This document shows positions 2,558-63,965 of a DNA stretch of 64,000 nt, piece by piece. The stretch is taken from positions 154,220,571 to 154,284,570 of the forward strand of contig JAVGWX010000002.1 in assembly GCA_036924085.1 (NCBI GenBank), written 5' to 3'. Below the pieces are notes generated by a model. It made no database searches, was not told where the DNA came from, and saw nothing but the letters and a program-made list of their open reading frames with translations. Source of the stretch: Ariolimax columbianus. Taxonomy: Eukaryota > Mollusca > Gastropoda > Stylommatophora > Arionidae. The position numbers and the translations under genes are program-made. The first letter of the stretch is position 1; the number at the start of each line of letters is the position of its first letter.

Positions 2558-3090
2558 ACGCTATATTGGGTATGCGCAAACTGCTCGATGGTCACAATTC
2601 CTGCATGGAGTATTGCTAGAGAACTATTCTATGACTTGAAATAAGATTTCCCGTTCCGCATACTCTTAGAAGAACATTTTTATAAAACAACTGCTGCCAC
2701 TTAATGACTTTCCCTTGTAGTTAGCTCGCAAATGAATTTGATTGTGTATGATTGAGCGTTTCAAAATCTGAGATTGAGGCCTGTACGTATACTCTCTGTA
2801 GCTCAAACATTCTCGTGAGGACAGTAATCATCGATAATAATGAATGAATAAATGAATCACTAACATCGTTTATTGTCATTGCAGAAGTTCACCCGGAGGA
2901 TGTGCAGGGTGTCATGAGCAAAGGGAACATGAAATGCAGTCTGAGCAGCAGTGCAGTTAGTGAGATTGTGTCTTGCAGAAAAGGGACATGAACCACTTCA
3001 CGCTTTTGACAAGATCCAGTTATGCAAATTCAAAATTGGTACCTGAATTATTATTCAGGCTTCTAATGTGTACAACGATAACTGCGACTA
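2558..3090. other. Unassigned DNA
   Basis: This lies between the mariner start codon region and the next array. It may include the mariner 5' end, but no terminal repeat could be matched. No coding or RNA signature was seen. Confidence 0.4.
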
Positions 3091-3093
3091 CGA

Positions 3094-3490
3094 CATCACA
3101 AATGTGAATTTATACATTTACCTGAGCGAAGAAATCACAAATGTGAATTTATACATTTACCTGAGGGAAGAAATCACAAATGTGAATTTATACATTTACC
3201 TGAGCGAAGAAATCACAAATGGGAATTTATACATTTACCTGAGCGAAGAAATAACAAATTTGAATTTGTACATTTACCTGAGCGAAGAAATCACAAATGT
3301 GAATTTATACATTTACCTGAGCGAAGAAATCACAAATGGGAATTTATACATTTACCTGAGCGAAGAAATCACAAATATGAATTTGTACATTTACCTGAGC
3401 GAAGAAATCACAAATTTGAATTTGTACATTTACCTGAGCGAAGAAATCACAAATTTGAATTTGTACATTTACCTGAGCGAAGAAATCACA
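3094..3490. repeat. 39-bp tandem array, open in the plus frame
   Basis: About ten copies of a 39-bp unit (starts atcacaaatgtgaattt) translate on the plus strand as ITNVNLYIYLSEE. Because 39 is a multiple of 3 the frame stays open through the array and creates a 229-codon frame from 3068. That frame continues into a LINE remnant, and I see no evidence that it is a gene. Confidence 0.95.
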
Positions 3491-12399: not shown

Positions 12400-13582
12400 A
12401 TTGGAGGGATTAAAAGTGGATAAATATCCAGGTCGAGATGGTATCCATCTCAAACTGCTATTTGAAATTATAGACCAAGTTGCAAAACCGTTGGTTATAT
12501 TATGTTCTCAATCACTTGCAAAGGGTATTGGAAAGATGCAGGAGTGATCCCCTTATTCAAAAAGGACAAAAAAATCAGATCCAGCAAATTATAGACATGT
12601 GAGTTTAACAAGCATAGTCTGTAAATTGTTAGAATCAATAATCAAAGAAAACATTGTAATGCATCTAATCAGAAATAGTCAGCATGTGTTTACTAGAGGG
12701 AGATCGTGTTTAACAAATATATTAGAATTCATGGAGGAGGTTACTAAAATGATAGATCAGGGGGAACCAGTGGATGTTATTTATCTAGATTTTACAAAGG
12801 CTTTTGATAGAGTACCTCATCGAAGAATATTTAAAAAGTTAAAATCACATGGAATAGGTGGGGAAGTTGCCGAATGGATTGAAAGTTGGTTAACAGGAAT
12901 AAGACAGAGAGTGGGCATAAATAAGGAGTACACTGAGTGGTGTGAAGTAAAAAGTAGAGTGCCACAGGGCTTGGCTTTGAGAGCAATTTTATTCTTGATA
13001 TATATAAAAACTATTTGGAAATTGATATAGGATCCAATATTGAAAAATTTGCGGACGACACAAAACTATGCAGGATGCGTCATCTGTAGCAGAAGTGTAT
13101 ATATTGAGGTCGGATTTAGATAAAATTCAAGACTGGTTTGTGAGATGGCAAATGGAGCAAATTTAGATAAATGTACAGTCGTCCACATGGGTAGAACCAA
13201 TATGGAACATAATTATAGAATGTGCGAGAACAATATAAGAATGATAGATAAGGAAAGGGACCTAGTGGTTGTAATAGAGCAAACAGGTAAAGTGAGTGAG
13301 CAAGTCCACGTAGCAGTGAATAAGGCAAATGCAATGTTAGGTATGATAAAACGAAATATTAAACATAGGAGTAAGGAAGTGATAGTCAAACTGTATAAAG
13401 TATGGTTAGATATAGATTGGAGTACTGTGTACAGGTGTGGAGTCCTTGTCACCGAGGATATATAAACATGCTGGAAAGAATACAGAGAAAAGTGACAAAA
13501 CTGATAGTGGGATTCCAGAATTACAGTTATGAGGAAAGACTCAGAAAAACTGGCTTACAGTGTCTAGAAAAGAGAAGAATTT
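12400..13582 (+). mobile_element. CR1-clade LINE, RT region (5' part of a split copy)
   Basis: The plus strand carries a decayed CR1 ORF2 in several frames: KYPGRDGIHLKLL near 12420; WKDAGVIPLFKK near 12530; SLTSIVCKLLESII near 12602-12645; VIYLDFTKAFDRVPH near 12775-12822; VPQGLALRAILF (degraded VPQGSVLGPLLF) near 12960; FADDTKLCRM near 13050; NLDKCTVVHMGR near 13160; and LEYCVQVWSP...YEERLRKTGLQCLEKRR to 13578. Endonuclease and ORF1 are missing (5' truncated). The element stops at 13582 and resumes at 20889 with the last 130 bp repeated, because a 7.3-kb insertion split it. Confidence 0.9.
13453..13582. repeat. 130-bp target-site duplication, left copy
   Basis: CR1 sequence identical base for base to 20889-21018. 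The two copies bracket the insertion 13583-20888. Confidence 0.95.
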
Positions 13583-13609
13583 CTTCTTCTTCTTCTTCTG
13601 CGTACACAG

Positions 13610-14518
13610 TCAGACAGTAACCATTATTTTTTCGAAAAAAGCGGCGGTCATCCTGAGACTCTCGCCACTACCATAGAGCTTGTCTTGCAGTTCCACTGGC
13701 AATGGCCACATCTGCTCTCTCTGATCCTCGTATGTCGGGCAGTTCTGCAGCAGATGTTCAGTGGTCATTTTACCAGTACCGCACGGGCATTCGTCGGTAC
13801 ACCCTATCTTCAATTTGTTGAAGAGGTGGTACCTCAGTCTGTTGTGGCCAGTGCGAAGTCTGAAGACAACGACCTGCTCTCTTCGGTTCAACTGGTAATA
13901 GGCATCGTTTTTGGTGTAACCAGTATGTTCGGTTTCCCATTTGGACATGTACCTGGCTTTGATAAGCCGTTTTGACTCTTCGTACGTCATACTAGTATCT
14001 ATTTGTGGTAGCCTTGCACCTTCTTTTGCCAGTCTGTCTGCCTCCTCGTTGCCTTGGATGTTGCAGTGTGACGGAACCCACTGTACCACTACCCTTTTTG
14101 GTGCGGACTGTTGGCACAGTTTGCAGAGTGCTGCTCTTAAGTCATTAAGCTCAGTGTTTTTCTGGCTTTTTAGCGCTGTGACTACTTCGAGAGCATCTGT
14201 CAGCAGGACTATGTGGCTCTCATTTTCACTGTGTGTTGCCATTTCTTCCACTGCCGCCCTCAGTGCCTCTGCCTCTGCTCTGAAATTGCTCGTGTACTTA
14301 CCAGTAGCGAATGACAGTGTTATTTTTCTGCCATTTGGTAGGTTCAGGAATGCTCCTGCCCCTCCGTTCTGTGTAGTGTTTGTTACAGAACCGTCGGTGT
14401 ATGCATGGGTCCAGTCCATGCTTGGGTAGCTTTTCGTTATGAAGCTTAGGGTAGTGTCTCTCCTTTCTTTTTCGGTCTGGCAGTTTTTGTTTGCAATACC
14501 TGGTATATTTTCTACCAC
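13610..14518 (-). CDS. I-group LINE polyprotein, RNase H and C-terminal part
   Basis: 302 residues from the first methionine. The RNase H type 1 fold is recognisable: HAYTDGSV (first catalytic Asp, about residue 41), RAEAEALRAA (Glu, about 83), LLTDALEV (Asp, about 106) and WVPSHCNIQGNEEADRLAK (His and last Asp, about 147-165). Near the C-terminus a CPCGTGKMTTEHLLQNC cluster (about 244-260) resembles the Cys/His motif at the end of I-group LINE proteins. It lies in exactly the same frame as the upstream 992-codon ORF. The two are separated only by one TGA at 14542-14540 and seven codons, so this is probably the end of a single polyprotein of about 1300 residues rather than a separate gene. 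RNase H removes RNA from the RNA-DNA hybrid during retrotransposition. Confidence 0.85.
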   Translation of the reverse strand: MVENIPGIANKNCQTEKERRDTTLSFITKSYPSMDWTHAYTDGSVTNTTQNGGAGAFLNLPNGRKITLSFATGKYTSNFRAEAEALRAAVEEMATHSENESHIVLLTDALEVVTALKSQKNTELNDLRAALCKLCQQSAPKRVVVQWVPSHCNIQGNEEADRLAKEGARLPQIDTSMTYEESKRLIKARYMSKWETEHTGYTKNDAYYQLNRREQVVVFRLRTGHNRLRYHLFNKLKIGCTDECPCGTGKMTTEHLLQNCPTYEDQREQMWPLPVELQDKLYGSGESLRMTAAFFEKIMVTV

Positions 14519-14539
14519 CTCTGGAAATATATCCTGCCT

Positions 14540-17518
14540 TCAAGTAGGTTTTCGTACAGTATTGATGGGTTTTGGTGTTGTTAGTGCGTTTATGGGATCT
14601 TCGTGCATCTTTGCTTTGGCTATTTCTGCAAAGTTTCTCCGCTTTAGTTTCCCAGTTCCCAGATTGTTTAGCCTCTGGTACATTGGATGGTCCGTCAGTC
14701 TTCGGAGTTTCTCTGACTGCAGCTGGGCTCTGCAGTCTCTTCTATCGGTCATGGATTGCAGTTTTGTAATCTTTTCAAGTTCTACAATTGGCGTTGACTT
14801 CATACCACCTGTTATGATTCTCATGGCTTGGTTTTGAAGTTTGTTAACTTTATCGAAGTTCGCCTTCGCTGCTGTTGTCCATGCCGCGATGCCATACTCG
14901 AGAACTGGTCTCACTCTTCCAGTGTACAGTTTCTTTAGTATGCCTTCGTCTGCTCCCCAGCTTGTGCCAGCAAGTTTCCTCATGATCGCCATTCTTTCTC
15001 TGGCTTTCATTCGGTTTCTCTCAATCTGACTTTTCCATGTCATGCGCCGATCAAATGTGACTCCCAGATAGGTTGGGTTGTCGTTTGGCTGCAGGATTTT
15101 GCCATTTAGGCTTAGTTTGGTACTTTGGGGTTTTAATGAGAGCGAGAATATTGTGCACGTGGTTTTCTCCTCGTTTATTTTGACCAGCCATGAGTTCGCC
15201 CACTCTTCCAGCGATGTTAGGGCCGTTTGCATCCGATTTCTTGCTATGGTGAGATTCTTTTCAGAGGTCCACATAGCCAGATCGTCTGCAAACATTGAGC
15301 TATGGACTCTTCTTGGTATATTCTCTGTAATATCGTTTATATATACCAGGAAGAGTGTGGGTGACAGTACTCCCCCTTGGGGTACTCCCTGCTCGAGTGT
15401 CACCTTTTTGCTCATCTGCCCTTGTACTTGGACTCTGGCCGTTCTTTGTTTGAGGTAGTGGTTGATCCACTTGTACATCTTCCCACAAACATCACTTCTT
15501 CTTAGCTTGACTCTAAGTCCATCCTTCCAGACTTTGTCAAATGCCTTTTCCAGATCCACCCAAACAGCTACTGTGTGTTTCTGTGCCTGGTAGGCATCTT
15601 CTATCTCTTGGGCTATGAGGATGACCTGGTCCTCAGTGGATCTGTGCTGTCTAAAGCCGGCTTGCTGTGGAATTAGTATTCGTTTTTCTTCCAGATGCCA
15701 CATCAGTCTGGTGTTTATCATCCGTTCCATCAGCTTGCCGACACAGCTCAGTAGGCTTATGGGCCTGTATCCATTCGGATCTGTTTTGTCCTTTCCTGTT
15801 TTTGGTACTGGTACCAGTATTGCATCTTTCCATGCCTGGGGTACAATACCCCTTTTCCAGCTTTGGTTCAGGACTGATAGTAGTTTTTTCTTCGCTGTTT
15901 GGCCCAGCCCCATCAGCATTTCGTTTGTTATCCCGTCTTTTCCGGGAGATTTCCTTCTCTTTAGTGTTCTCATAGCCTCTTCCATTTCGCGCATTGTTAG
16001 TTTGGCCATCATGTGCTCTTCAGGAGCCGTATTTATGTTTTCGTGCCCCTTTAGCTCTTCGCTAATGTCTGTATGCTTATCTGCAGGGACCTCGATGTGG
16101 TTTGCTCTGGCATAGTGATCGACAAAGGCGTTTGCGGCTTTCTTACCTGTGATCAAGTTCTCGCCTTGCTTGATAGTAATTTGTTTATTTGACGGGGTTT
16201 CGTCGTTCATGGCTCTGACTAGCTTCCATAGCTTGTTCCCTTCTTTGTCCAGGTTTAAACTTTCCGTTTTATTTTTCCAACTTTCTCTTGCTGTTTGCTT
16301 GAGAGTGTGTTTGTACTTCGCCGCGGCGGCTTTGAGGGCGATGTTTGCCTCCACGGATTTTTCTCGTTCTGCCATGTTCCTAGCATTTGTTACTGCATCT
16401 TCCACTTTCTGTAACTCATCATTCCAGTAGGGCTTATAGTTTTTCCTAGCTCCTCTTGGGATGGTTTCAGTGGCGGCTTGCATTATTGCCTTGCTTAGGC
16501 TCTCTACCATGGGCTTCATTTTGGTGTTTCGTGTGTTGATGGTTTCACACAGCCCATCTGTCAGGATTGCAAATCTGTCCCAGTCGGCTCGTTTGTAATT
16601 CCAACGTGGGAGCGGTTTTGTTTCCTGTGGGCCTACTTCCATGTCAATGGTTAGCCTGATCGGCCTGTGGTCGCTACCTGCCAGTTGGTTTAGCACCTGG
16701 CGGTCTATTTTATAGTGTATGTCCTGTGTGGAGAAGGCCAAATCTGGAGTCGAGGTGGTATGCCATGTTCTTGAATAGAAGCTAGGGCTATCCTCCGGCC
16801 TATTGATTAGGGAGAGATTTGCATCTATCTCCCAATCTTCCACTTCGTCACCTCTGCTGTCTGTGTCAGAGTATCCCCATCTCTCCGAGTGGCTGTTGAA
16901 ATCTCCAACCACTATGCAGTTGGAGTCTCTGACCTCCATACTCGAGAGCGATAGGTCTCTGTTTGGTGGTCCGTACAGATTGAAAATGCGGAGCTTCGTC
17001 TCTTGAGCCATTATGTCAACTCCTACAATTTCTGCTTGTCCGGTGTGATTGACAGGTACCGCGCTACTCGGTATGCTGTTTCTGGTCAGTATCAGGACCC
17101 CTCCTTTGTGGCCTTCTCTATCTAGACGGAAAGTCTGGTATCCTCTGATTGAGAATTTATGGTTATTGTTGAGGTGCGTTTCCTGGATACATGCCACGTC
17201 AATCTTACCTTCATGCAGGTGATGTGTTAGGGAAAGTTTTTTGTTAATCACTCCCTCCGCATTCCACTGTAATATTCTGAGGGTCTTGAAGTTTTGGCCA
17301 ATAGTCGTTTCCCCATAGCCATGTGCCTTGACTCCACGACACATGGGTGGGTGACCACCAGTAGTCAAGGGTGGGCCCCTTCGAGGCGTGGGGCCCGGCG
17401 CTATCGCTGCCTGGCGGGTCTCCTCAGGATGAGCGCCATACGTTTTTCGAATAGGTTGTGCTGCCATCATACTGTGATTTACGTTGCACTGTTTTGTTAG
17501 GCTTGCGGCCCCGTGCAT
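14540..17518 (-). CDS. I-group LINE polyprotein, endonuclease and reverse transcriptase
   Basis: 992 residues, intact. The apurinic-like endonuclease domain runs from about residue 80 to 290: RILQWNAEG (81), IQETH (111), VVGDFNSHSERWG (203) and GSDHRPIRL (281). The reverse transcriptase follows: KSPGKDGI (523), YRPISLLSCVGKLMERM (584), WVDLEKAFDKVW (653), QGVPQGGVLSPTLF (710), the catalytic FADD (743-746) and YLGVTFD further on. The upstream frame is closed by a TGA nine bases before ATG 17518, which supports that start. It nicks target DNA and copies the LINE RNA. Presence of APE, RT and RNase H places it in the I group (I/Nimb-like). No gag-like ORF1 or CCHC knuckles were found upstream. 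A single TGA ends it before the in-frame RNase H part. Confidence 0.92.
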   Translation of the reverse strand: MHGAASLTKQCNVNHSMMAAQPIRKTYGAHPEETRQAAIAPGPTPRRGPPLTTGGHPPMCRGVKAHGYGETTIGQNFKTLRILQWNAEGVINKKLSLTHHLHEGKIDVACIQETHLNNNHKFSIRGYQTFRLDREGHKGGVLILTRNSIPSSAVPVNHTGQAEIVGVDIMAQETKLRIFNLYGPPNRDLSLSSMEVRDSNCIVVGDFNSHSERWGYSDTDSRGDEVEDWEIDANLSLINRPEDSPSFYSRTWHTTSTPDLAFSTQDIHYKIDRQVLNQLAGSDHRPIRLTIDMEVGPQETKPLPRWNYKRADWDRFAILTDGLCETINTRNTKMKPMVESLSKAIMQAATETIPRGARKNYKPYWNDELQKVEDAVTNARNMAEREKSVEANIALKAAAAKYKHTLKQTARESWKNKTESLNLDKEGNKLWKLVRAMNDETPSNKQITIKQGENLITGKKAANAFVDHYARANHIEVPADKHTDISEELKGHENINTAPEEHMMAKLTMREMEEAMRTLKRRKSPGKDGITNEMLMGLGQTAKKKLLSVLNQSWKRGIVPQAWKDAILVPVPKTGKDKTDPNGYRPISLLSCVGKLMERMINTRLMWHLEEKRILIPQQAGFRQHRSTEDQVILIAQEIEDAYQAQKHTVAVWVDLEKAFDKVWKDGLRVKLRRSDVCGKMYKWINHYLKQRTARVQVQGQMSKKVTLEQGVPQGGVLSPTLFLVYINDITENIPRRVHSSMFADDLAMWTSEKNLTIARNRMQTALTSLEEWANSWLVKINEEKTTCTIFSLSLKPQSTKLSLNGKILQPNDNPTYLGVTFDRRMTWKSQIERNRMKARERMAIMRKLAGTSWGADEGILKKLYTGRVRPVLEYGIAAWTTAAKANFDKVNKLQNQAMRIITGGMKSTPIVELEKITKLQSMTDRRDCRAQLQSEKLRRLTDHPMYQRLNNLGTGKLKRRNFAEIAKAKMHEDPINALTTPKPINTVRKPT

Positions 17519-18470
17519 CCGATTTCAACAGGCGTTTCTGTAGGGATGCCCTCCTTAGCCTTTGGCTGTCCCCAGCCTATCTGCAAGGCAGCAGTTGTTT
17601 ACGATCAGAGTTTTCTCTCCTATGGAAGTTGTCTTACCAGACTATCGAGTCTTCACTACTCGTGTCTATAGGGTGCAATGATGGTATGTGATATATGAGA
17701 TGGACTGGTTTACCCGGAAGAGAGGCAGTCCAGTGTGTCTGTATCCCAGGATCGTCACGTCCTGCCAGAAACGTAGCATTTGCATGTGAGTGGGGTATCT
17801 CTTTTTCCCTTTATTTTCTTGGCTTCTATGCAGGGATGGTACGCCTAGCATTCCCCGCCACCTGGGGTGTTGACACAGTGGGGCAGGTGTGCAATGTCCG
17901 CTGGTCTGCATCTCTTCTGCGTCCAGCATGATAGTTATGGCTGATAACGTACAGAGGTAGATATCGTAACCGGAGTGCATTTAGCCAGAGGACAAGCCTG
18001 GTAATGTCACAGAGATGTTGATCGCCTGGTGTGCGGACAACTCTCATGGTCAGTGGTTGAGTCTTGACAGTTCACAGTGTGGTGGCTGCTCTACTGTTTT
18101 CGACACCCCGACCAGGTTCTAAGTCTTTGGTTGGTGTTTTTCGCACCCCATCGCCGTATAGGGTGAGTATCAAGCAGTTTTCCGCCCGCTTTGATTTGCG
18201 GGCGGCAAGGACCTCTTACTGTGGCTCTACCTGATAGGGCTGGGGCGCAAGCCCCAGGTCCCGAGCATGTAGGAGCCTCCCATTGCAGTGGTGCTGAGAT
18301 TTTGGGCGGGATTGCGGCTTTCAAGGGTTCGGCCGTAATCCCCCACATGGTAGCCTCGCGCCCTTGGCTTATCAGCCTGGTACGTGAACCAAAGTGTCTG
18401 CGGCTCCTCTCGATTTGAGCTGGTTTTCCGTAGCAACGCCTTGTCATTTGTAGGGTAAAACTGACCTGTC
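17519..18470 (-). other. LINE leader region, no ORF1 seen
   Basis: About 950 nt between the 18S-derived modules and the polyprotein ATG. Short frames (18447-18091, 18490-18227) show no gag or CCHC motif. It is less AT-rich than the surrounding DNA. It probably serves as 5' UTR and internal promoter, by analogy with other I-group LINEs, but nothing in the sequence proves this. Confidence 0.55.
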
Positions 18471-19072
18471 TTCAGATCTATTTCCAGCACCCGTTCACTA
18501 TTTGGTCAGACGAATTTATTGAGGGCTTTTGTTTGTCAATGACCAGGTATTTGAAATCTGCGGAGTTAAACACGATTTCCGTAGCGTTCTTTCATTTGAG
18601 CTGACTTGTCGTCCGTGAGTCTAATACCAGCGTACGTTCATTATTAGACCCAAACGGCAGTGCTCTCAATTAGTCAGTTGTTCTACAGTATTGGCGTGTT
18701 CAGTCAAATTAAGCCGCAGGTTCCACACCTGGTGGTGCCCTTCCGTCAATTCCCTTAGCGAGACAATCAAGTTTCTTAAAGGGTAGCCCCAAAGATTTTC
18801 GAGGGTCTAATTCCAGCACATGTTCTCTATTAGACCCCACTAAGGTGTACTTTTTGATAGTCATTCTGCAGTATTGGCGTGGTAAGTTAACTTAGGTCTC
18901 AGGCTCCACTCCTGATAGTGCTCTTCCGTCAATTCCTTTATCAAACACTGGATGCAGACAAAACCGAGCCACAGGGGACATAACCCCAGATTTCTGGGGG
19001 TCTAAGTCCAGCACCAGTTCCATATTAGACTCCAGAAGAGTGGTCTCGGCATGTCAATCATTTTAGTGTTGG
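18470..19072 (-). repeat. Tandem leader modules of 185-196 bp holding 18S pieces and hairpins
   Basis: On the minus strand a ~62-nt 18S segment (AAAGGAATTGACGG ... GACTCAACAC) is followed by GCCAATACTG-type sequence and then a hairpin whose arms are gggtctaa/ttagaccc. Extra 18S segments lie at about 18695-18756 and 18876-18938, besides the one in the 18S body (19073 to about 19135). Hairpin copies lie at about 18476-18513, 18617-18651, 18802-18837 and 18998-19033. The modules differ from one another at several positions, so they are older than the last insertion. Confidence 0.85.
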
Positions 19073-19096
19073 CCGTGTTGAGTCAAATTAAGCCGC

Positions 19097-19145
<49 letters not shown>

Positions 19146-20311
19146 TTTGCAACCATACTTCCCCCGGAACCCAAACACTTTGGTTTGCCGGAAGCTGCCC
19201 GCAGAGTCATCGAAGCAACTCCTGCGGATCGCTAGTCGGCATCGTTTATGGTCAGAACTACGACGGTATCTGATCGTCTTCGCGCCTCTGACTTTCGTTC
19301 TTGATTAATGAAAACATTCTTGACAAATGCTTTCGCAGTAGCTCGTCTTGCGGCGATCCAAGAATTTCACCTCTAACGCCGCAATACGAATGCCCCCGTT
19401 TGTCCCTGTTAATCATTACCTCCAGTTCCGAAAACCAACAAAATAGAACCGAGGTCCTATTCCATTATTCCATGCACCATTATTCAGGCAGCCGAGGCCT
19501 GCTTTGAACACTCTAATTTTTCAAAGTAAACGCGCCGGCCACCCAGGACGCTCAGCGAAGAGCACCCGTGGGAGAGAGCCGGCAGACGGTAGGGCAGGAG
19601 ACAACGGGCAGTGAACCGGCGCGAGCCGGACCGCCCGCCTGCGCCTGAGATCCAACTACGAGCTTTTTAACTGCAACAACTTTAATATACGCTATTGGAG
19701 CTGGAATTACCGCGGCTGCTGGCACCAGACTTGCCCTCCAATAGATCCTCGTTAAAGGGTTTAAAGTGTACTCATTCCAATTACGGGGCCTCGAAAGAGT
19801 CCCGTATTGTTATTTTTCGTCACTACCTCCCCGTGCCGGGAGTGGGTAAGTTGCGCGCCTGCTGCCTTCCTTGGATGTGGTAGCCGTTTCTCATGCTCCC
19901 TCTCCGGAATCGAACCCTGATTCCCCGTTACCCGTTACAAACATGGTAGGCATGTCACGTACCATCGACATTTGATAGGGCAGACATTTGAAAGATGCGT
20001 CGCCGGCACATGAGGCCATGCGATCAGCACAAAGTTATCCAGAGTCACCAGTGGGGACGCCGTAACCCCGCGAGGGGAAACGACGATTGGTTTTGAACTA
20101 ATAAAAGCGCTCTTTCCGCGAGGGTCGGAGCTTGGTAAGCATGTATTAGCTCTAGAATTGCCACAGTTATCCAAGTAGGATCGTGTCATCTAAGGAACCT
20201 CGACTGATTTAATGAGCCATTCGCGGTTTCACCGTGAGACAGTGTGAACTTAGACATGCATGGCTTAATCTTTGAGACAAGCATATGACTACTGGCAGGA
20301 TCAACCAGATA
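19073..20311 (-). rRNA. 18S rRNA, 5' 1239 nt (partial, retrotransposed)
   Basis: The minus strand starts at 20311 with the universal 18S 5' end (ATCTGGTTGATCCTGCCAG). It includes GGTAATTCCAGCTCCAATAG near 19700, GAAATTCTTGGATC near 19360, ATTAATCAAGAACGAAAG near 19300 and GGAATTGACGGAAGGG near 19125. It stops at 19073, immediately after GACTCAACACG, in a universally conserved block about two thirds along the gene. The 3' third of 18S, ITS, 5.8S and 28S are absent, so this cannot yield a functional small-subunit RNA. It is part of the LINE insertion. Some positions differ from conserved metazoan 18S (for example around 19950-20000), which may mean a diverged or pseudogene source copy. Confidence 0.93.
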
Positions 20312-20888
20312 TCTGTCGGAGACGTACGTACAGCACACACCGGTCGGCGGAGGAAGGGTGTGTAAAAAGCCTCGCTGGGACGACGGCCGCAGGGACCGAC
20401 TGACGGGACGGACGGACGGTTGTTCCACCCGTCCCTCACTCCGTCGACCTAGGACCGCCTGACAGGGGCCTCCCACACGCACCAGACGACCGACCGACCG
20501 GGCTCGCTCGAGGAGGGATGGCAGCGCTCTGTGCAGAACGGATCCCAACGACCTCGGCGACGAATTTCACTGGGACTAGAGACACAATTTGGCCTGCCCT
20601 TCTCCGTAGGGAGAGAACGCAGGGCCTCGAGGCAACGATTCCTGCTTTCCATTTGCCGGTCACAAGCTCTTTGCGAGAGTCGGACCACCAGCGAGACGTA
20701 CTGTCGAGCTCTGCTATAAGCCTTAGATAAATCACCAGGGACGGACCACGTTTCCTGATACGGACCAGACCAGCGCACCTCGGTGGATGAGCCGCTACAA
20801 CAAACCGCACCCAATTCGCTCTACGGGGAAAGGCAGGCGAGCGTTTTCCGCAAGCCCGCGCTATCGCTCCGCCTGGCGGGAATGAGAT
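20312..20888 (-). other. 5' external transcribed spacer of rDNA (577 nt)
   Basis: GC-rich sequence directly upstream of the 18S 5' end, with the gtccgtccgtcccgtc-type simple motifs common in 5'ETS. It ends exactly where the 130-bp duplication begins (20889). If the insertion came from a full-length transcript, 20888 would be at or near the RNA polymerase I start site. This is inferred only from its position. Confidence 0.65.
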
Positions 20889-21018
20889 CGAGGATATATA
20901 AACATGCTGGAAAGAATACAGAGAAAAGTGACAAAACTGATAGTGGGATTCCAGAATTACAGTTATGAGGAAAGACTCAGAAAAACTGGCTTACAGTGTC
21001 TAGAAAAGAGAAGAATTT
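20889..21018. repeat. 130-bp target-site duplication, right copy
   Basis: Identical to 13453-13582. It starts cgaggatatataaacatgc and ends gagaagaattt. Confidence 0.95.
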
Positions 21019-37429: not shown

Positions 37430-37616
37430 TAAGTCAAATAAAATGTTGTGCCCAAATGGGAAACAGAACATACTGGCTACACAAAAGATTATGCCTATTA
37501 CCAGTTGAACAGAAGAGAGCAGATCGTGGTCTTCAGACTCCGCACAGGCCACAACAGACTGAGGTACCATCTATTCAATAAACTGAAGATAGGTGGCACT
37601 GACGAATGCTTTAACT
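37430..37616 (+). mobile_element. I-group LINE fragment (RNase H tail), interrupted by CR1
   Basis: The plus strand encodes KWETEHTGYTK, then YAYYQLNRREQIVVFRLRTG and HNRLRYHLFNKLKIGGTDEC. This is nearly the same as the polyprotein at 13610-14518. It stops where the CR1 3' end begins. The LINE's own 3' end reappears at 39986-40018. Confidence 0.9.
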
Positions 37617-43400: not shown

Positions 43401-46400
43401 TCGTGTAGATATGGTGACGTATTCAGCATTACAAAAAATGGCTGTTCGGGAGTGTCTCCGTTCAAACAAACAAAAATTTTTACGCACACCGTTTTTGTAG
43501 GCCGAGTTGGTCCGCTAGGGTGTTACGAGGGCGTGCTAAAGGCTAAAGTCATAGATCTCTCCGCACATAGGCCCACCTTGTGGTGGTTGGAGGGCTTGTG
43601 TGCCCCAGTGACCTCGGGAGCTATGCCGGCGAGAGTTTTGCTTCTGGCAGGGTCACCCAAGCTAGATAGGTCCTGAGGAAGAGACCAGACCAAGGGGCTG
43701 AGGAGTAGATGGAACCCTTTAGGTGTGGACATCGAACCCACTGGTGAGTAGTACAAGCTCTGGTCCACACCAATCCATCCTTACTTCATGGGTTAAATGC
43801 TTTTCTTGTCTCACTCCTTGCTTTCGCCCTCTATCCATCCCTGTGAAGACTATATCAAACCACCGCTGCCTTGTGGTAGTTCCAGAAAGAACAAAGGCTA
43901 AGGCAACAAAGCCTGAATAGAAAATGTGGGCAGGCAGAGCCCATAAGCCTGGTAAGGCAATCTGTATATGGAAGGAGGCATCCAGAGTGAAAACCTCAAT
44001 CGTCGAAGTCGGAAGATGTAGGCCCAAGTGGCACAGGAGTAGAAAATGGATATCTACATAAAACAACGGATATTATGCAACAAACACTAGACTATATGGG
44101 ACGTGACCAGGTAGGGATGATGCTGGGCCCTCGGCCTCAAAGGGGTCCAACCAATGCTAATGGGACCACAAACTCTGACACTTCCGGGAAGTCCAGGGAA
44201 GATCAGAGTAATGCTACTGGACAAAAACTTAAAATTGTGCAGTGGAATGCTGAGGTGGTGAGACCTAAGAAACTGGAATTAGAAAAGTTCCTGAAAGAGC
44301 AAGAAATCGATGTATGTTGTATACAGGAAACATACCTCACCAGTGATCACAGATTCTTGATAAGAGGATATTAAATCGTCCGACTGGACAGAAAAGATCG
44401 ACCAAAAGGGAGAGTCTTGACTGCCATCAGGAACAAGTACCCGGCCTGGGAAGTTCAGACATCTAATCTACATGACACAGAGCACATAAGTATTGGCTTG
44501 GGAACCTTGGAAGGAGACCTCACAATGTGTAATTTCTATTCTCAACCAGACAAACATATACACCTGAAGAATATCAGACTGGGTACCCATGACTGGATGA
44601 TCGTCTGTAACAGTCATTCTCCATACCTAAATGCCAAAGGAGAGGAGAGGACTTTATCATAGCCAACAGCCTAATCACACTAAACAAACCTGATGACCCA
44701 CACACATACTACTCTAGGTCCTACATGACCTACTTTCTGTCTCACATCCTCGTTTCAACAATGCCTCGACTGCCTGGAACATATCCTCGTCTGCAAACAT
44801 ACACTCGGTGGCTGCATCAAGGCAAGTAAACCTGGGGTTATACATGTTCTGGGTGCTCCTCCTCTTGTGGCGAAGCTTATCTGGGTGTGCACCATGCTCC
44901 AGCAACAACTGTAGGAAAGGTCAAAGTTCACATACATAAATAAAACAAGATAGATCCTTGGAATAATGTACAAGAATCACATCTCAACATTCTTAAGGCA
45001 ACCCATCAGAAGGTCAGATCGTATAAAGAACTTCTGACTGTTGTTAAAACATACAAGGTCATGGTAAGGTCATATATCACGATCCAATTAACAATCCAAC
45101 ATTATACTCAGTCCAAGAACAAGATAGATAGGAAGACCCTGGACAGATTATGTTCAGAAATAGACTGGGAAAATCTTGAAAGATAGAGAAAGACTGGCAA
45201 TGGATAGACCGGTGAAAATAGACATTTCAAATTCACTGAGATTTGGTGCCCTAAACACCACCTGGATTATGGGAAAGAAGAATAATTAATTATCAAATGT
45301 TTATCAACCCTGGTTAGCAGTCATGGGATATTGGACATGCTTATTGTCAGTGTTACTGCAGAGATAGACTCTGGCTTTAGGCTAAAGAACAGAACAAAGC
45401 TAAGATTATGCAAGCATACCATGACGTACTGGATATCCCGGTTCATGAATGCCACGTACAGCGGTGTCGACGAGTTACCAGCATCACCATCAGGACATGC
45501 TCCAGCCTGCAACAACTTTCTGGCACAGTCTAAACGTCGGTTCTTCACTGCCACAAACAATGGAGTTTGACATTTGACATCAGTTGTGTCAATGCTGGCC
45601 CCAGAATTTATTAAGTGAGTAAGGCATTCCAGGTGACCTCCTTGCAGATAAATACACAAGATAATAAGAGTAAAAAAAATTTAATTTTGCAAGAATGATC
45701 TGCATAGCGGTAAGGAAAGCACAACAATTAAATTAAATATATAAAGTTATGACTGAGAAGGTTGAGGCATATGTAATATCCTAATCCTAAAATGCGTAGA
45801 CAAGGTTACAAAAGTAGTTTCTGGAAGAAAATGGGACAAAGGCACATAGAACAGGAAATCTTAGGAAGATGTGCCATATACTGTGAGTACCTCAAGCCAG
45901 GATCACCAAGCAATCACTGAAGTAAAACTGAAGAGGAAAAAAAAGATAGAGGAAGGCAAAAGAATACATAGAGATGAGACTTAAATGAAGATTGAAAAAA
46001 AACAATCTGGGTATATCTAGAAAGAACTAGAAAACAATGCACAGTACAGGACTGTTTGGGGAGAATTGGTTGATGACTTATGCACCTCAAGTTGAAGAAG
46101 AAGAAGAAAAAGAACAAGACATTGTAGGTGTCTTCCTGACAGACAAACTGGCAAGACGACAAAAATAATTGATTATAATAGAGCAACAATTGAATTTACA
46201 AAAATAAAGCTAAATAAATGAATGAAACAAATAGTTATGATTATAAAGAAAACACATCAAACTTACACTCTACCAGACGAACCAAGTGTTTGGCAATTTT
46301 TGTCTTAACAGTGCAAGTAAAATAACACAGATTGTTAAATAATTCCCTTAAAAAATTAATTTTAACTAAAATAACAGACCTGCAAATTATGGTTATTAAA

Positions 46401-56189: not shown

Positions 56190-57536
56190 TATAATTCAAA
56201 TATGCAAAAAGAAAGGTAGCAAAAGACTGCACAAAATATAGAGGAATATCGTGCTTAGCCGCACTGGCAACATATTTAGTAAAATCATATAAAAAATGAC
56301 TATGCTACATCATCAAACCCCAGCTCAACGATACTCAGATGGTATTTAGAAAGAACAGAAGCTGTATGGATGCAACTTTTACACTCCGACAATTGATGGA
56401 GAGAACAATTGGAGACGATCAGGAACTGTATGTTGCGATTGTAGATTAAGAAAAAGTTTTTGATAGGGTAGATAGACATCATCCATGGAAAATGCTGGCA
56501 AGCTATGGAGTGATTGATCACCTAATTAACCTGTGCAAAAGTCTACATTAATAATAGCCGGTGCACTGTTCGAACAATAACTGTTTTAACTTGTCTCAGC
56601 AAAATTTCATATCAAATCAGGAGTACGACAAGGATGTGTGATACCTCCTTTGTTATTCTCTACATAATAGTAGGTATAAGCGTAGTGCCATTCAGCCGGC
56701 GTCCAGACCAGGATTAACGGACGGAAGAAATCACAAAAAAAGAACGAAATAACAAGTCCCGACGGAAAACAACACCACGCTTCCGTGAACACAAGTGTAA
56801 GTCGTCGACTAGTGTGAATTCCAGGCAAATCCGGGGTCTGGCGGCATCCATAATGATCCAAAACAGTAGAGAAAGGTAGACTCGCAGCCAGTTATGGCGC
56901 CATCTTTGCCAGATCTATTCTCTACATATGTAGACTATATTTGTAAAACAGCCAACCCAAAATGTAGGTAGTAACATTAGTGAACTCTTAAATGAACTTC
57001 TTGTTCTGACGATCAAGCAGTCATAGCTCCTTCAGAACTAAAATTACAACAACATAATGATCAACTAAATACAACATGTAAAGTATGTAGCATGAAAATC
57101 AATATAGAAAAAATTAGGCCATGAAAATATCTAGAATAGACGGAGATATCAGTACCGCCATTGAAAAACAGCAGCTCAAACCGGTGAAAGATTTCACATA
57201 CTTAGGGGCACGTTATCAGCAGAATTACAGTAGAAATCCAACAAAGATGCAATAATGCAAATTAGATCATTTGACAATTAACTCCAATACTTAATTGCAA
57301 GTACGTGACAATACCTACAAAAAGAGATTTAAACAACACGATTATCGTCCCGATATTATGGTTATCAATGTCAAAACTGGACACTAACATCAAATGAAAA
57401 ATACTACATCGTAACAATAGAAATGAAATGTCTGAAAAATATTGGGCGACTAATGGGAACGACAACAGTATTAGACTACATTAAAAGACAGCAACTAAAA
57501 TGGTTTGCTCACATAACGTTTACCACCACAAACCAC
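56190..57536 (+). mobile_element. Non-LTR retrotransposon fragment, interrupted by a short insertion
   Basis: Plus-strand pieces: KYRGISC near 56240; RKNRSCMDATFTLRQLMER near 56345-56400; ELYVAIVD.EKVFDRVDRHH near 56425-56480; GVRQGCVIPPLLFS near 56620; FTYLG near 57195; and MKCLKNIGRLMG...IKRQQLKWFAHI near 57423-57515. It is related to 21290-22530. A 249-bp insertion sits at 56667-56915. The C-terminus runs directly into the 29-bp array. Confidence 0.75.
56667..56915 (-). mobile_element. 249-bp insertion with 13-bp target-site duplication, SINE-like
   Basis: The 13-mer tattctctacata flanks it at 56654-56666 and 56916-56928, and the host LINE frame resumes after it. Read on the minus strand it begins gatctggcaaagatggcgcc and ends in a tat-rich tail, which suggests a retroposed element in minus orientation. 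AAGATGGCG resembles the YY1-type motif at the 5' end of some LINEs. No Pol III boxes were found. Confidence 0.75.
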
Positions 57537-60500
57537 CCCTCCACAAACCTGCCACCACACAACACCCCTCCACAAACCTACCACAACACAACACCCCTCC
57601 ACAAACCTATCACCACACAACACCCCTCCACAAACCTACCACAACACAACACCCCTCCACAAACCTACCACCACACAACACCCCTAAACAAATCTACCAC
57701 CACACAACACCCCTCCACAAACCTACCCCCACACAACACCCCTCGACAAACCTACCACCACACAACACCCCTCCACAAACCTACCACTACACAACACCCC
57801 TCCACAAACCTATCACCACACAACACCCCTCCACAAACCTACCCACACACAACACTCCTCCACAAATCTACCACCACACAACACCCCTCCACAAACCTAC
57901 CACCACACAGCACCCCTCCACAAACCTACCCCCACACAGCAACCCTCCACAAGCCTACCACCACACAACACCCCTCCACAAACCTACCACCACACAACAC
58001 CCCTCCACAAACCTACCACTACACAGCACCCCTCCACAAACCTACCACCACATAACACCCCTTCACAAACCTACCCCCACACAGCAACACCCCACAAACC
58101 TACCCCCACACAACACCCCTCCACAAACCTACCCCCACACAACATCCCTCCACAAGACTACCACCACACAACACCCCTCAACAAACCTACCACCACACAA
58201 CACCCCTCCAAAAACCTACCCCCACACAACGCCCCTCAACAAACCTACCACCTCACAACACCCCTCCACAAACCTACCCCCAAACAACACCCCTCCACAA
58301 ACCTACCCCTACACAACACCCCTCTACAAATATACCACCACACAACACCCCTCCACAAACCTACCACCACACAACAACCCTCCACAAACCTGCTACCACA
58401 CAGCAACCCCCCACAAACTTACCACCACACAACACCCCTCCACAAACCTACCCCACACAGCAACCCTCCACAAACCTACCACCACACAACACCCCTCCAC
58501 AAACCTACCACCACACAACACCCGTCCAGAGACCTACCACCACACAACACCCCTCCAAAAACCTACCACCACACAACACCCGTCCAGAGACCTACCACCA
58601 CACAACACCCCTCCAAAAACCTACCACCACACAACACCCCTCCACAAACCTACCACCACACAACACCCCTCCACAAACCTATCACCACACAACACCCCTC
58701 AACAAATATACCACCACACACCAACCCCCCCCTCACAAGCCTACCACCACACAGCAGCCCCCCCCCCCCCCACAAACCTACCACCACACAGCAGCCCCCA
58801 CAAGCCTACCACCACACAGCAACCCCCAACAAACCTACCCCCACAAAACACCCCTCCCCAAACCTACCACCACACAACACCCCTCCATAAACCTACCACC
58901 ACACAGCAACCCCCACCCCCAAAAGCCTACCCCCACACAGCAACCGCCCACAAGCCTACCACCACATAGCAACCCCTCCTACAAGCCTACCGCCACACAG
59001 CCACCCCCCACAAACCAACCACCACACAGCAACCCCCCACAAGCCTACCACCACACAACACCCCTCCACAAACCTACCACCACAGAACACCCCCACAAAC
59101 TTACCCCCACACAACCCCCTACAAACCTACCACCACACAGCAACTTACCACAAGCCTACCAACCATACAGCAACCCCCACCCCCCCACAAGCCTACCCCC
59201 ACACAGCAACCCCCACAAACCTACCACCACACAGCACCCCCCACAAGCCTACCACCACACAATACCCCTCCACAAACCTACCACCACACAACACCCCCAC
59301 AAGCCTACCCCCACACAGCAACCCCCCACAAACCTACCACCCCACATCACCCCCCACAAGCCTACCACCACACAACACCCCTCCACAAACCTACCACCAC
59401 ACAACACCCCTCCACAAACCTACCCACACACAACACTCCTCCACAAATCTACCACCACACAACACCCCTCCACAAACCTACCACCACACAACACCCCTCC
59501 ACATACCTACCCACACACAACACTCCTCCACAAATCTACCACCACACAACACCCCTCCACAAACCTACCCACACACAACACTCCTCCACAAATCTACCAC
59601 CACACAACACCCCTCCACAAACCTACCACCACACAGCACCCCTCCACAAACCTACAACCACACAACACCCCTCCACAAACCTACCACCACACAACACCCC
59701 TCCACAAACCTACCACCACACAACAACCCTCCACAAACCTGCTACCCCACAGCAACCCCCCACAAACTTACCACCACACACCACCCCTCCACAAACCTAC
59801 CCCCACACAGCAACCCCCCTCCCCTAAACTTACCACCAAACAGCACCCCTCCACAAACCTACCCCCACACAGCAACCCTCCACAAACCTACCCCCACACA
59901 GCAACCCTCCACAAACCTACCACCACACAACACCCCTCCATAAACCTACCACCACACAACACCCGTCCAGAAACCTAACACCACACAACACCCCTCCAAA
60001 AACCTACCACCACACAACACCACTCCACAAACCTACCACTACACAACACCCCTCCACAAACCTATCACCACACAACACCCCTCCACAAATATACCACCAC
60101 ACAGCAACCCCCCCCCCCTTACAAGCCTACCACTACACAGCAACCCCCCACAAACCTACCACCACACAGCAACCCCCCACAAGCCTACCACCACACAGCA
60201 GCCCCCCACAGACCTACCACCACACAGCAACCCCCACAAGCCTACCACCACACAGCAGCCCCCCACAAACCTACCCCCACACAACACCCCTCCACAAACC
60301 TACCACCACACAACACCCCTCCACAAACCTACCACCACACAGCAACCCCAACCCCCAAAAGCCTACTCCCACACAGCAGCCGCCCACAAGCCTACCACCA
60401 CACAGCAACCCCTCCCACAAGCCTACCGCCACACAGCAACCCCCCACAAACCAACCACCACACAGCAACCCCCCACAAGCCTGCCACCACACAACACCCC

Positions 60501-62045
60501 TCCACAAACCTACCACCACAGAACACCCCCACAAACTTACCAACACACAACCCCCCACAAACCTACCACCACACAGCAACTTCCAACAAGCCCACCAACC
60601 ATACAGCAACCCCCACACCCCCAACAAGCCTACCCCCACACAGCAGCCCCCACAAACCTACCACCACACAGAACCCCCCACAAGCCTACCACCACACAAC
60701 ACCCCTCCACAAACCTACCACCACACAACACCCCCACAAACCTACCACTACACAACCCCCCACAAACCTACCACCACACAGCAACTCCCCACAGCCTACC
60801 CCCACACAGCAACCCCCACCCCCCCACAAGCCTACCCCCACACAGCAACCCCCACAAACCTACCACCACACAGCACCCCCCACAAATCTACCACCACACA
60901 ACACCCCTCCACAAACCTACCAACACACAACACCCCCACAAGCCTACCCCCTCACAGCAACCCTCCACAAACCTACCACCCCACATCACCCCCCCCCACA
61001 AGCCTACCACCACACAACACCCCTCCACAAACCTACCACCACACAAAACCCCTCCACAAACCTACAACCCCACAGCACCCCCCAAAAGCCTACCACCACA
61101 CAGCAACCCCCCCCCCCCACCCACAAGCCTACCACCACACAGCAACCCCCCACAAACCTACCACCACACAACCCCCCCCACAAACCTACCATCACACAAC
61201 ACCCCTCCACAAACCTACCACCACACAACACCCCCACAAACCTACTACCACACAACACCCCTCCACAAACCTACCACCACACAACACCACCACAAACCTA
61301 CCACCACACAACCCCCCACAAACTTACCATCACACAACACCCCTCCACAAACCTACCACCACAAAACACCCCCACAAACCTACCACCACACAACACCCCT
61401 CCACAAACCTACCCCCCACAAACCTACCATTACACAACACCCCTCCACAAACCTACCACCACACAACACCCCCACAAACCTACCACAACACAACCCCTCA
61501 CAAGCCTACCACCACACAACCCCCCACAAGCCTACCACCACACAACACCCCTCCAGAAACCTACCACCACACCTCTCCACAAACCTACCACCACACAACA
61601 TCCCTCCACAATCCTACCACCACACAGCAACCCCCCACAAGCCTTATACCACACAACACCCCTCCACAATCCTACCACCCCACAACCCCCCCACAAACCT
61701 ACCACCACACAACACCCCTCCACAATCCTACCACCCCACAACCCCCCCCCCCACAAACATACCACCACATAACCCCCCACAAACCTACCACCACACAACA
61801 CCCCTCCACAAACCTACCACCACACAACACCCCTCCACAAACCTACCACCACACAACACCCCTCCACAAACCTACCACCACACAAACCACCCCAACAAAC
61901 CTACCACCACACAACCCCCCACAAACCTACCACCACACAGCAACCCCCGACAAGCCTACCACTACACAGCAACCCCCCACAAACCTACCACCACACAGTA
62001 CCCCTCCACAAGCCTACCACCACACAACACCCCTCCACAAGCAAG
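57525..62045. repeat. 29-bp minisatellite, about 155 copies, C-rich strand
   Basis: Units like cctaccaccacacaacaccc... (29 bp). Variants carry caacacccc, cagcaacccc and cagcagcccc centres, and poly(C) runs (e.g. near 58755, 60105, 61095). The plus strand has almost no G. Frames open for up to 489 codons (57500-58969) encode a 29-residue TQHPSTNLPPHNTPPQ-type cycle only because the unit lacks stops. Segments of several units recur (59380-59720 resembles 57740-58060 and 58370-58400), showing segmental amplification. Confidence 0.98.
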
Positions 62046-62839
62046 GCTATTTAGATACAACGGATTCAAAGCCTATAAAGTAGACAGACGAGCTCGTTTT
62101 AGAGATGTCTTTATAGCCTGAAGCCGAAAGGTAAAACAGGATACGCGAAAAGAAGAAAGAGGTTTCAAAAGCAATGGTTTTACACGCATTTACGACCGTA
62201 GATAAGGTTAGGGTTTAAGACCCCCTTCCATGTTATTGTGTAGTTTATGCATATTTTTGCATTAAAAATAATTAGACTAAAACGTCTTATTGTCCATTTT
62301 TACACCATATGATATGCCCTTACATCTGCGTGCGAAATTTCTTGCGGCTTTCTTTGTATAGTGTCATTTGTCCTCTTGAATGGGCACCTGGTTCTGTTTT
62401 GGATGGGATGTTTGAGAGAAATGAGCAGTGGGAGGGGGGTATGCAGGGAGTAGATTGGTTGGGGAAGAGATAGATGGGGAATGGCTAGATTGAGATGCAA
62501 AAGAGATGGGCAGAGGGATGCCATTTAATGGGGAGGAGTTTGAGGAGAAGAGTCTGGGTGGAAACAGATGAGCGGGGATGGGTTGGTTGTCGGGGAGTAG
62601 AGGAGATTAAAGAGTAAGAAGATGTGTGAAGAAGGATGATTGGGGGGGGGGGGAGAAATGGATGGGTTGGTTGTGAAGCCGAATAGATCGGCTAAGGGAT
62701 GAACGGGTTTAGAGGGAAAACTTTGAGTGACAAGAATTAGAAAATGAGAAAAAATGGGTGGGGGAATGAGTTGGTTGACCAGGGAAGGGGAGCAGATGAG
62801 TATAACTTGGAATAGTATGCTACACCTTATGAGAACCAG
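62046..62839. other. Unassigned DNA, purine-rich towards the right
   Basis: The first 250 bp is AT-rich unique sequence with KVDRRARFRDVF in one frame, perhaps the right flank of the LINE at 57536. The rest (62380-62800) is G/A-rich, low complexity, with a poly(G) run at about 62641. Confidence 0.4.
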
Positions 62840-63965
62840 GAGGGAGTGCAGTGGGGATGGGAGGCTGGGGAGCACCAGCAGGGAGTGCAGTGGGGATGTG
62901 AGGCCGAGGAGAGATGCAGGGAGTGCAGTGGGGATGGGAGGCTGGGGAGAACCAGCAGGGAGTGCAGTGGGGATGTGAGGCTAGGGAGAACCAGCAGGGA
63001 GTGCAGTGGGGATGTGAGGCTAGGGAGAACCAGCAGGGAGTGCAGTGGGGTTGGGAGGCTGGGGAGAACCAGCAGGGAGTGCAGTGGGGATGTGAGGCTA
63101 GGGAGAACCAGCAGGGAGTGCAGTGGGGATGGGAGGCTGGGGAGAACCAGCAGGGAGTGCAATGGGGATGTGAGGCTGGGGAGAACCAGCAGGGAGTGCA
63201 GTGGGGATGGGAGGCTGGGGAGAACCAGCAGGGAGTGCAGTGGGGATGGGAGGCTGGGGAGAACCAGCAGGGAGTGCAGTGGGGATGGGAGGCTGGGGAG
63301 AACCAGCAGGGAGTGCAGTGGGGATGTGAGGCTAGGGAGAACCAGCAGGGAGTGCAGTGGGGTTGGGAGGCTGGGGAGAACCAGCAGGGAGTGCAGTGGG
63401 GATGGGAGGCTGGGGAGAACCAGCAGGGAGTGCAGTGGGGATGTGAGGCTGGGGAGAGATGCAGGGAGTGCAGTGGGGATGTGAGGCTGGGGAGAACCAG
63501 CAGGGAGTGCAGTGGGGATGTGAGGCTGAGGAGAGATGCAGGGAGTGCAGTGGGGATGGGAGGCTGGGGAGAACCAGCAGGGAGTGCAGTGGGGATGTGA
63601 GGCTGGGGAGAACCAGCAGGGAGTGCAGTGGGGATGTGAGGCTGGGGAGAGATGCAGGGAGTGCAGTGGGGATGTGATGCTGGGGAGAACCAGCAGGGAG
63701 TGCAGTGGGGATGTGAGGCTGAGGAGAGATGCAGGGAGTGTAGTGGGGATGTGAGGCTGAGGAGAGATGCAGGGAGTGCAGTGGGGATGTGAGGCTGAGG
63801 AGAGATGCAGGGAGTGCAGTGGGGATGTGAGGCTGAGGAGAGATGCAGGGAGTGCAGTGGGGATGTGAGGCTGAGGAGAGATCCAGGGAGTGCAGTGGGG
63901 ATGTGAGGCTGAGGAGAGATGCAGGGAGTGCAGTGGGGATGTGAGGCTGAGGAGAGATGCAGGGA
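62840..63965. repeat. 39/38-bp tandem array with two unit types
   Basis: The common part is ggagtgcagtggggatgtga then ggctg. Type 1 ends gggagaaccagcag (39 bp) and type 2 ends aggagagatgcag (38 bp). Type 1 dominates at 62930-63450, the two interleave from 63440 to 63720, and type 2 is pure to the right end. Plus-strand frames of more than 200 codons here are artefacts. Confidence 0.97.

Follow-up and report, generated by a model that had tools for sequence, protein, structure and literature searches.

A LINE family carrying 5′ETS and 18S rRNA in Ariolimax columbianus points to a probable source within 18S rDNA

Results

Layout of the insertion

We analysed a stretch of 64,000 nucleotides from Ariolimax columbianus (GenBank assembly GCA_036924085.1, contig JAVGWX010000002.1, positions 154,220,571–154,284,570 of the forward strand), termed the window, which harbors an insertion combining a long interspersed nuclear element (LINE) with ribosomal RNA (rRNA) sequence. 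Read on the minus strand from 20888 to 13583, the insertion comprises the 5′ external transcribed spacer (ETS) of the rRNA precursor, 18S rRNA, a leader, an open reading frame (ORF) encoding APE endonuclease, reverse transcriptase and RNase H, and a (GAA)n tail, all enclosed by one perfect duplication of 130 bp (Table 1). The initial annotation had proposed this order on one strand within a single duplication, and the flanks, the Rfam SSU match and the protein domain matches confirmed it. It further proposed that a LINE located in 18S ribosomal DNA (rDNA) was read from the rDNA promoter, the resulting single RNA then being copied. This proposal is well supported at the level of sequence by the shared start of the copies, their match to host 18S, the interleaving of LINE and rDNA ETS sequences and an rDNA unit on contig C67 that bears the LINE. 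The target of the insertion is another LINE, CR1-like by the reverse transcriptase match of the flanking ORF and the translation of the joined flanks, and probably a CR1, the name given to it in the initial annotation.

Table 1. Features of the insertion and its flanks, in window coordinates.
Feature	Position	Strand	Evidence and remarks
Target-site duplication beside the 3′ end	13453–13582	.	Partner of 20889–21018
Short 3′ untranslated region (UTR) and (GAA)n tail	13583–13609	-	Tail end at 13583
Single ORF with one in-frame TGA (14542–14540)	13610–17518	-	
RNase H	14015–14404	-	PF00075, E 2.3e-17
Reverse transcriptase	15053–15796	-	PF00078, E 1.6e-39
APE endonuclease	16655–17272	-	PF03372 / PF14529
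Leader, whole	17519–19072	-	
Diverged 28S rRNA 3′ end within the leader	18039–18442	-	Rfam LSU, 67 bits, model 3005–3399 of 3401
Third 18S-like 62-nt segment (m3)	18695–18756	-	Self-comparison; in copy L019, 90% identity with host 18S (71 nt)
Second 18S-like 62-nt segment (m2)	18878–18939	-	Self-comparison; in copy L019, 82% identity with host 18S (71 nt)
Leader unit m1, spacer after the junction (CCAACAC...)	18940–19072	-	Weak in-register similarity to the remaining host 18S
18S rRNA nt 1 to ~1240, ending CAACACGG	19073–20311	-	1239 letters; Rfam SSU, 939 bits
Pre-rRNA 5′ETS without its first 56 nt	20312–20888	-	Homologous to rDNA ETS, 93.4% to one unit
Target-site duplication beside the 5′ end	20889–21018	.	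130/130 match to 13453–13582; a few A at the edge possibly tail

A dispersed family with one junction

To place the insertion in its genomic setting, we searched the organism's own assembly (2.29 Gb, 401 contigs). The exact 18S/LINE junction pattern, with two ambiguous letters, yielded 2,717 matches, not all of which are necessarily separate insertions, as compared to none for the reversed-pattern control; the 100 matches listed all lie on the chromosome-size contig C1. The insertion, initially taken as a single event, is thus one of many. A search with the APE region gave 670 candidates, and the 40 places scored, including the window, were all near-identical. From the 39 other places we fetched 20 copies, all best matches, in which the LINE body diverged from the majority by 0.06–0.40%. 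Eleven of them are complete to the 5′ end, one of these (L022) with a deletion inside 18S, and the starts of the remaining nine are scattered over the ETS, 18S and leader, with no discrete LINE start among them. The complete copies carry a (GAA)4–7 tail and, in 9 of 11, target duplications of 12–14 bp; no duplication was detected for the other two. The 130 bp duplication of the window copy is unusually long by this measure. One truncated copy (L024) lies antisense within the 18S of another family member, flanked by a duplication of 42 bp.

The common 5′ end

All 11 complete copies begin at CTGGGGTA, preceded by AT in nine. This common start lies 56 nt upstream of window position 20888, as measured in 10 copies, and the window copy is therefore 5′-truncated; position 20888 itself, formerly suggested as the pre-rRNA start, falls short of the start by the same distance. 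In the host rDNA the sequence at this place reads GGAATGTATATT followed directly by ATCTGGGG, and the homology of the 11 copies begins no more than 3 nt from the base that follows GGAATGTATATT. Two further copies compared with a host rDNA unit were truncated further inside. Its location and the 5′ end common to the copies make the base after GGAATGTATATT the putative start of transcription by RNA polymerase I (Pol I).

The corresponding promoter pattern occurs at 120 sites in the genome. Of the 100 sites listed, 98 fall on C50 or later contigs, for the most part ~12.3 kb apart. The exact pattern is also present on two chromosome-size contigs (C10:58993498, L078; C12:62836865, L079), where the sequence 1.85 kb downstream appears by eye LINE ORF-like in L078 and similar to the 28S 3′ end in L079.

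Comparison of the copies with host rDNA

In copy L019, the last 132 nt of the ETS together with 1,240 nt of 18S are identical to host rDNA at 1372/1372 positions in three of the four units compared and at 1371 in the fourth. Over the full ETS, the same copy differs from the three rDNA units read by 10–14 substitutions.

We then counted the variants among the copies, noting that fewer copies cover the ETS and 18S than the ORF. Shared variants were found at 9/633 sites of the ETS, 0/1237 of the 18S, 0/593 of the monomers, 2/440 and 1/521 of the two leader parts and 15/3,908 of the ORF, with singletons numbering 25, 29, 26, 16 and 13, and 98, respectively. The ETS of the copies resolves into at least four haplotypes, two of which, A and B (counting L033 as a variant of B), each pair with both main types of LINE body. 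The three rDNA units themselves contain two ETS types, and the ETS sequences of the LINE group with both of them. A tree separating LINE from rDNA ETS was rejected by the approximately unbiased (AU) test with p 0.014 (14 LINE and 3 rDNA sequences), with modest support at several nodes.

A LINE junction inside an rDNA unit

We examined the position of the junction in 23 rDNA units, five of them chosen for odd promoter spacing, as well as at the two promoter sites on chromosome-size contigs. Four of the 23 units were readable at this place, three with intact 18S and one, on contig C67, with the LINE junction; locating units via the 3′ half of 18S selects for intact ones. In the C67 unit the promoter pattern is exact, the ETS is identical to that of another unit at 610/610 positions, and the final 362 nt of its 18S before the junction are identical to the host, followed by 348 nt of LINE leader. 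The distance from start to junction, 1,849 nt, equals that of the C222 unit. The promoter spacing is 18,554 compared with ~12,150 nt (+6.4 kb); net of a shortened neighbour the excess amounts to 5,438 nt, and the LINE measures 5,490 nt. The initial annotation had named an absence of LINE copies from rDNA, along with differing junctions, as grounds for abandoning its proposal, and we observed the exact junction in the C67 unit and 2,717 identical junctions overall.

Further rRNA-like sequence in the leader

The leader, at first regarded as plain LINE sequence, contains two more 18S-like segments of 62 nt as well as a diverged 28S 3′ end. Each leader unit consists of one such 18S-like segment followed by a spacer, and both m2 and m3 stop at the CACG boundary used by the present 18S/LINE junction. 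The idea of a LINE simply landing in plain 18S did not hold up, as the leader already holds 18S-like segments ending at the junction boundary.

That the spacers following these segments represent further 18S is suggestive only as judged from alignment scores. Against true host 18S, 10/2000 shuffles were as good for L070 and 62/2000 for L019. Local alignment of single spacer monomers with human letters, an approximate reference like all human and mollusc-like letters used here, was not significant (in sets of 500 shuffles, 129, 247, 352 and 295 scored equally well). Start-anchored tests gave 20, 150 and 35 of 150 shuffles as good for the human letters and 1, 150 and 13 of 150 for the mollusc-like sequence, and for the monomer consensus the values were 984/2000 and 7/2000, respectively.

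The 28S-like part extends almost to the 28S terminus and is identical to human 28S at 115/161 and 60/108 positions. Relative to human 28S, 49/64 base pairs are kept; eight pairs are changed on both sides, and six of these remain standard pairs (against a null mean of 1.63; fraction 0.0015), and 5/18 one-sided changes keep pairing. Compared with the Rfam consensus, 17/19 double changes still pair. We also considered this part as a conserved functional RNA and claim no function for it, because few one-sided changes pair and because host differences that predate the capture are inseparable from later ones.

Related loci carrying 5.8S

A search with 5.8S returned 53,434 first-look candidates; 40 loci were scored and ten fetched (L042–L051), with the 5.8S at 1501–1654 of each sequence, on either strand. 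All ten match the LINE studied here, L044 and L045 being near-duplicates. Seven of the nine aligned loci share a region that starts in the first internal transcribed spacer (ITS1) at least ~205 nt before the 5.8S, four of them at about the same base and three longer, and the other two start later. From there the loci continue across 5.8S as far as ITS2 or the beginning of 28S and then change to the LINE leader, 18S or ETS, with switch points that differ between loci and with short shared letters, by eye, at some of the joins. Locus L047 joins ITS2 to the start of the window family's ETS. Judged by sequence, these loci resemble products of template switching onto processed pre-rRNA.

Discussion

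A probable source in 18S rDNA and its alternatives

One junction, one 5′ end, an rDNA-like 18S part without shared variants, interleaved ETS sequences and a LINE-bearing rDNA unit are most simply accounted for by an 18S source read by Pol I, and we consider it probable that the window copy belongs to a young LINE family that uses a ribosomal co-transcript as its genomic RNA. We infer that source LINEs would reside in the rDNA arrays, within 18S genes and following 18S nt ~1240, where Pol I starting from the normal pre-rRNA start would transcribe a single RNA comprising the 5′ETS, 18S nt 1–1240 and the LINE. Starting at the (GAA)n end, the LINE protein would reverse-transcribe this uncut co-transcript into APE-nicked sites genome-wide, with complete copies ending at the pre-rRNA start and others truncated at scattered points. 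The in-register 18S-like repeats of the leader suggest that the first entry into 18S proceeded through homology, possibly by in-register switching or by recombination via the LINE's own 18S-like segments. A wider reading has, in our estimate, about even chances of being correct: that this is a LINE lineage with an rRNA transcript as its 5′ UTR, living in 18S genes and borrowing the Pol I promoter, in which ribosome biogenesis sets the 5′ end of the RNA (the pre-rRNA start here, a site in ITS1 for the 5.8S-bearing sisters) and which has spread thousands of copies with all or part of ETS-18S through the genome. The 18S-like repeats of the leader, which all end at the present junction, would then reflect long or repeated residence at one 18S position.

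Several observations weigh against an rDNA-resident source. None of the copies has an ETS identical to any of the three rDNA ETS read, the closest differing by four substitutions and two gaps, and haplotype A, which is the most frequent in the sample, is missing from these three. Only one copy per side (L019 and L033) breaks the linkage between ETS and LINE body, and our confidence is lowered by this together with the missing identical rDNA ETS. The lack of shared 18S variants is only moderately unlikely by chance, as 4.7 would be expected at the ORF rate and 2.4 at the leader rate, and the 20 fetched copies lean young because they were chosen from the best matches. As for the rDNA itself, a single LINE-bearing unit stands against three intact ones among the four readable of 23 probed. 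The C67 unit is known in parts, with ~840 nt of its 18S and the 3′ junction of the LINE outside the pieces read, and it could have arisen when a dispersed copy recombined with rDNA. A pattern search for the LINE tail followed by downstream 18S found no instance, which says little as much of the rDNA sequence is not readable.

A different origin would be template switching at every insertion, in which a separate LINE RNA is copied first and the enzyme then jumps in register, at an 18S-like segment of the leader, onto pre-rRNA and copies it to the 5′ end. The leader does contain such segments, other LINE copies join ITS2 or 28S at varied places (nine loci), some with short stretches of letters shared by eye, such as template switching leaves, and LINE-1/28S chimeras are published (PMC13174262). 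However, this origin would have to produce one identical junction in 2,717 copies without a shared 18S variant among those sampled, the starts of the nine truncated copies do not cluster at a native LINE 5′ end, and switching alone does not explain a LINE in an rDNA unit. We regard it as unlikely for the window family; it accounts for the sister lineages better. A little less probable again is a single capture of ETS-18S, after which the composite LINE would have spread from dispersed copies by an internal promoter, independently of rDNA. Subfamily variants of the LINE body exist, and the ETS is the same in four copies but missing from the three rDNA units read, as such a history would allow, but the absence of shared 18S variants, the rejection by the AU test of a LINE ETS clade apart from rDNA, the ETS haplotypes not strictly tied to the type of LINE body and the identity of the L019 18S part with rDNA all argue against it.

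As rDNA arrays are hard to assemble, an artefact joining rDNA and LINE might also be suspected. For the dispersed copies it is refuted by the perfect flanking duplication and by separate loci with duplications of their own (9/11), and what very small probability we leave it concerns the one rDNA unit on C67. A one-off chimera formed in the window by a single template jump would be plausible from the window alone, and comparable events are reported for LINE-1 (PMC13174262), but it is ruled out by the 2,717 copies of the junction and their common 5′ end, and we give it practically no credence. Compared with any of these, an 18S-resident source read by Pol I remains the simplest account.

Relation to known elements

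I-group LINEs encode APE, reverse transcriptase and RNase H in one protein, and many members have a separate gag-like ORF1. The former arrangement is present here and continuous in the relatives P0001 and P0002, where the ORF is uninterrupted; as to the latter, no minus-strand ORF of at least 120 amino acids was found between 17519 and 19072. The ORF is 69% identical to P0001 with 97% of the query covered. Among the matches listed (120 of 323), identities reach up to 69% for the closest, and gastropod proteins include those of Batillaria (55%) and Littorina (46–48%), such that mollusc I-group LINEs are related at 46–55% identity to the one studied here. Upstream of nine distant LINE loci (26–31% identical) we found no rRNA match, several of these loci having little upstream sequence. 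Viral contigs searched for LINE relatives and for 18S/28S letters returned nothing. Assemblies of bacterial symbionts and metagenome-assembled genomes (L001–L009), several from bivalve symbionts, contain LINE sequence, probably as host contamination.

Elements of the R2/R8 type carry a restriction-like endonuclease, and those of the R1/R7 type an APE endonuclease and reverse transcriptase without RNase H. The present LINE has APE in place of the former and possesses the RNase H missing from the latter. A 5′ HDV-like ribozyme, as in R2/R8, was not seen, and an element processed by a ribozyme was rejected, since no such family is among the Rfam matches (three scans, E up to 1, 10 and 10). With regard to a fixed rDNA site, the LINE occupies 18S ~1240 in the C67 unit, one of the four readable among 23, its 3′ junction there lying outside the pieces read, whereas confinement to rDNA is contradicted by its junctions genome-wide.

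According to PMC2718515, R1 and R2 reside in rRNA genes, R2 appears co-transcribed with the 28S gene, and full-length melanogaster-type R1 copies outside rDNA carry 7–28 bp of upstream 28S. In contrast to these arthropod elements, the LINE described here has its site in 18S, encodes an APE-RT-RNase H enzyme and carries ETS and 18S (~1.87 kb) back to the putative transcription start, in thousands of junction copies. Association with an 18S site is a likeness, by description, to R8 of the R2 clade, which inserts in 18S (PMC5035012), and to R7Ag of the R7 group in the R1 clade, named 18S-specific in the title of a reference within PMC7265360; these are described as target-specific, whereas the present LINE is widespread. 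Mammalian LINE-1/rRNA chimeras comprise mostly sense 28S at 18 loci with fragments of 50–482 nt (PMC13174262). Sense rRNA 5′ of a LINE within one target duplication is found here as well, but in place of isolated events with varying junctions we observed one junction, carrying ETS-18S, 2,717 times. Retrotransposon-mediated spread of rDNA was proposed for coregonine fishes from fluorescence in situ hybridization (PMC3585787). A LINE with ETS and 18S as an amplified 5′ region was not found in the literature searched, which left most subscription papers outside its scope.

R2-type LINEs cut themselves from the pre-rRNA co-transcript by a ribozyme and remain for the most part within rDNA; in the present family the uncut co-transcript appears to be the successful genomic RNA, so that use of a Pol I promoter, dispersal and rDNA residence appear joined in one lineage. 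The dispersed copies offer a readout of the pre-rRNA 5′ end and of rDNA haplotype history, and counting or barcoding by 18S in genomes of this kind will encounter numerous partial 18S copies that are almost perfect.

Additional observations

The first 36 nt of the insert (window 20852–20888) resemble the start of the LINE's own ORF (0/500 shuffles as good) and also the D12 region of human 28S (1/2000 shuffles as good). As identical letters stand in the host rDNA ETS, we treat this double resemblance as an unexplained property of the ETS.

The 18S stretch just past the junction has 149 matches in the genome, the 100 listed lying on C1–C17, so a large number of partial 18S copies located away from the arrays do not belong to the LINE family studied here. 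Elsewhere in the window, positions 37449–37609 hold an old fragment of this family (87.6% over 161 bp), more distant LINE matches occur near 44108–44730, and the repetitive ORFs with strong GC skew at 57400–62000 and 62800–63600 point to long tandem arrays.

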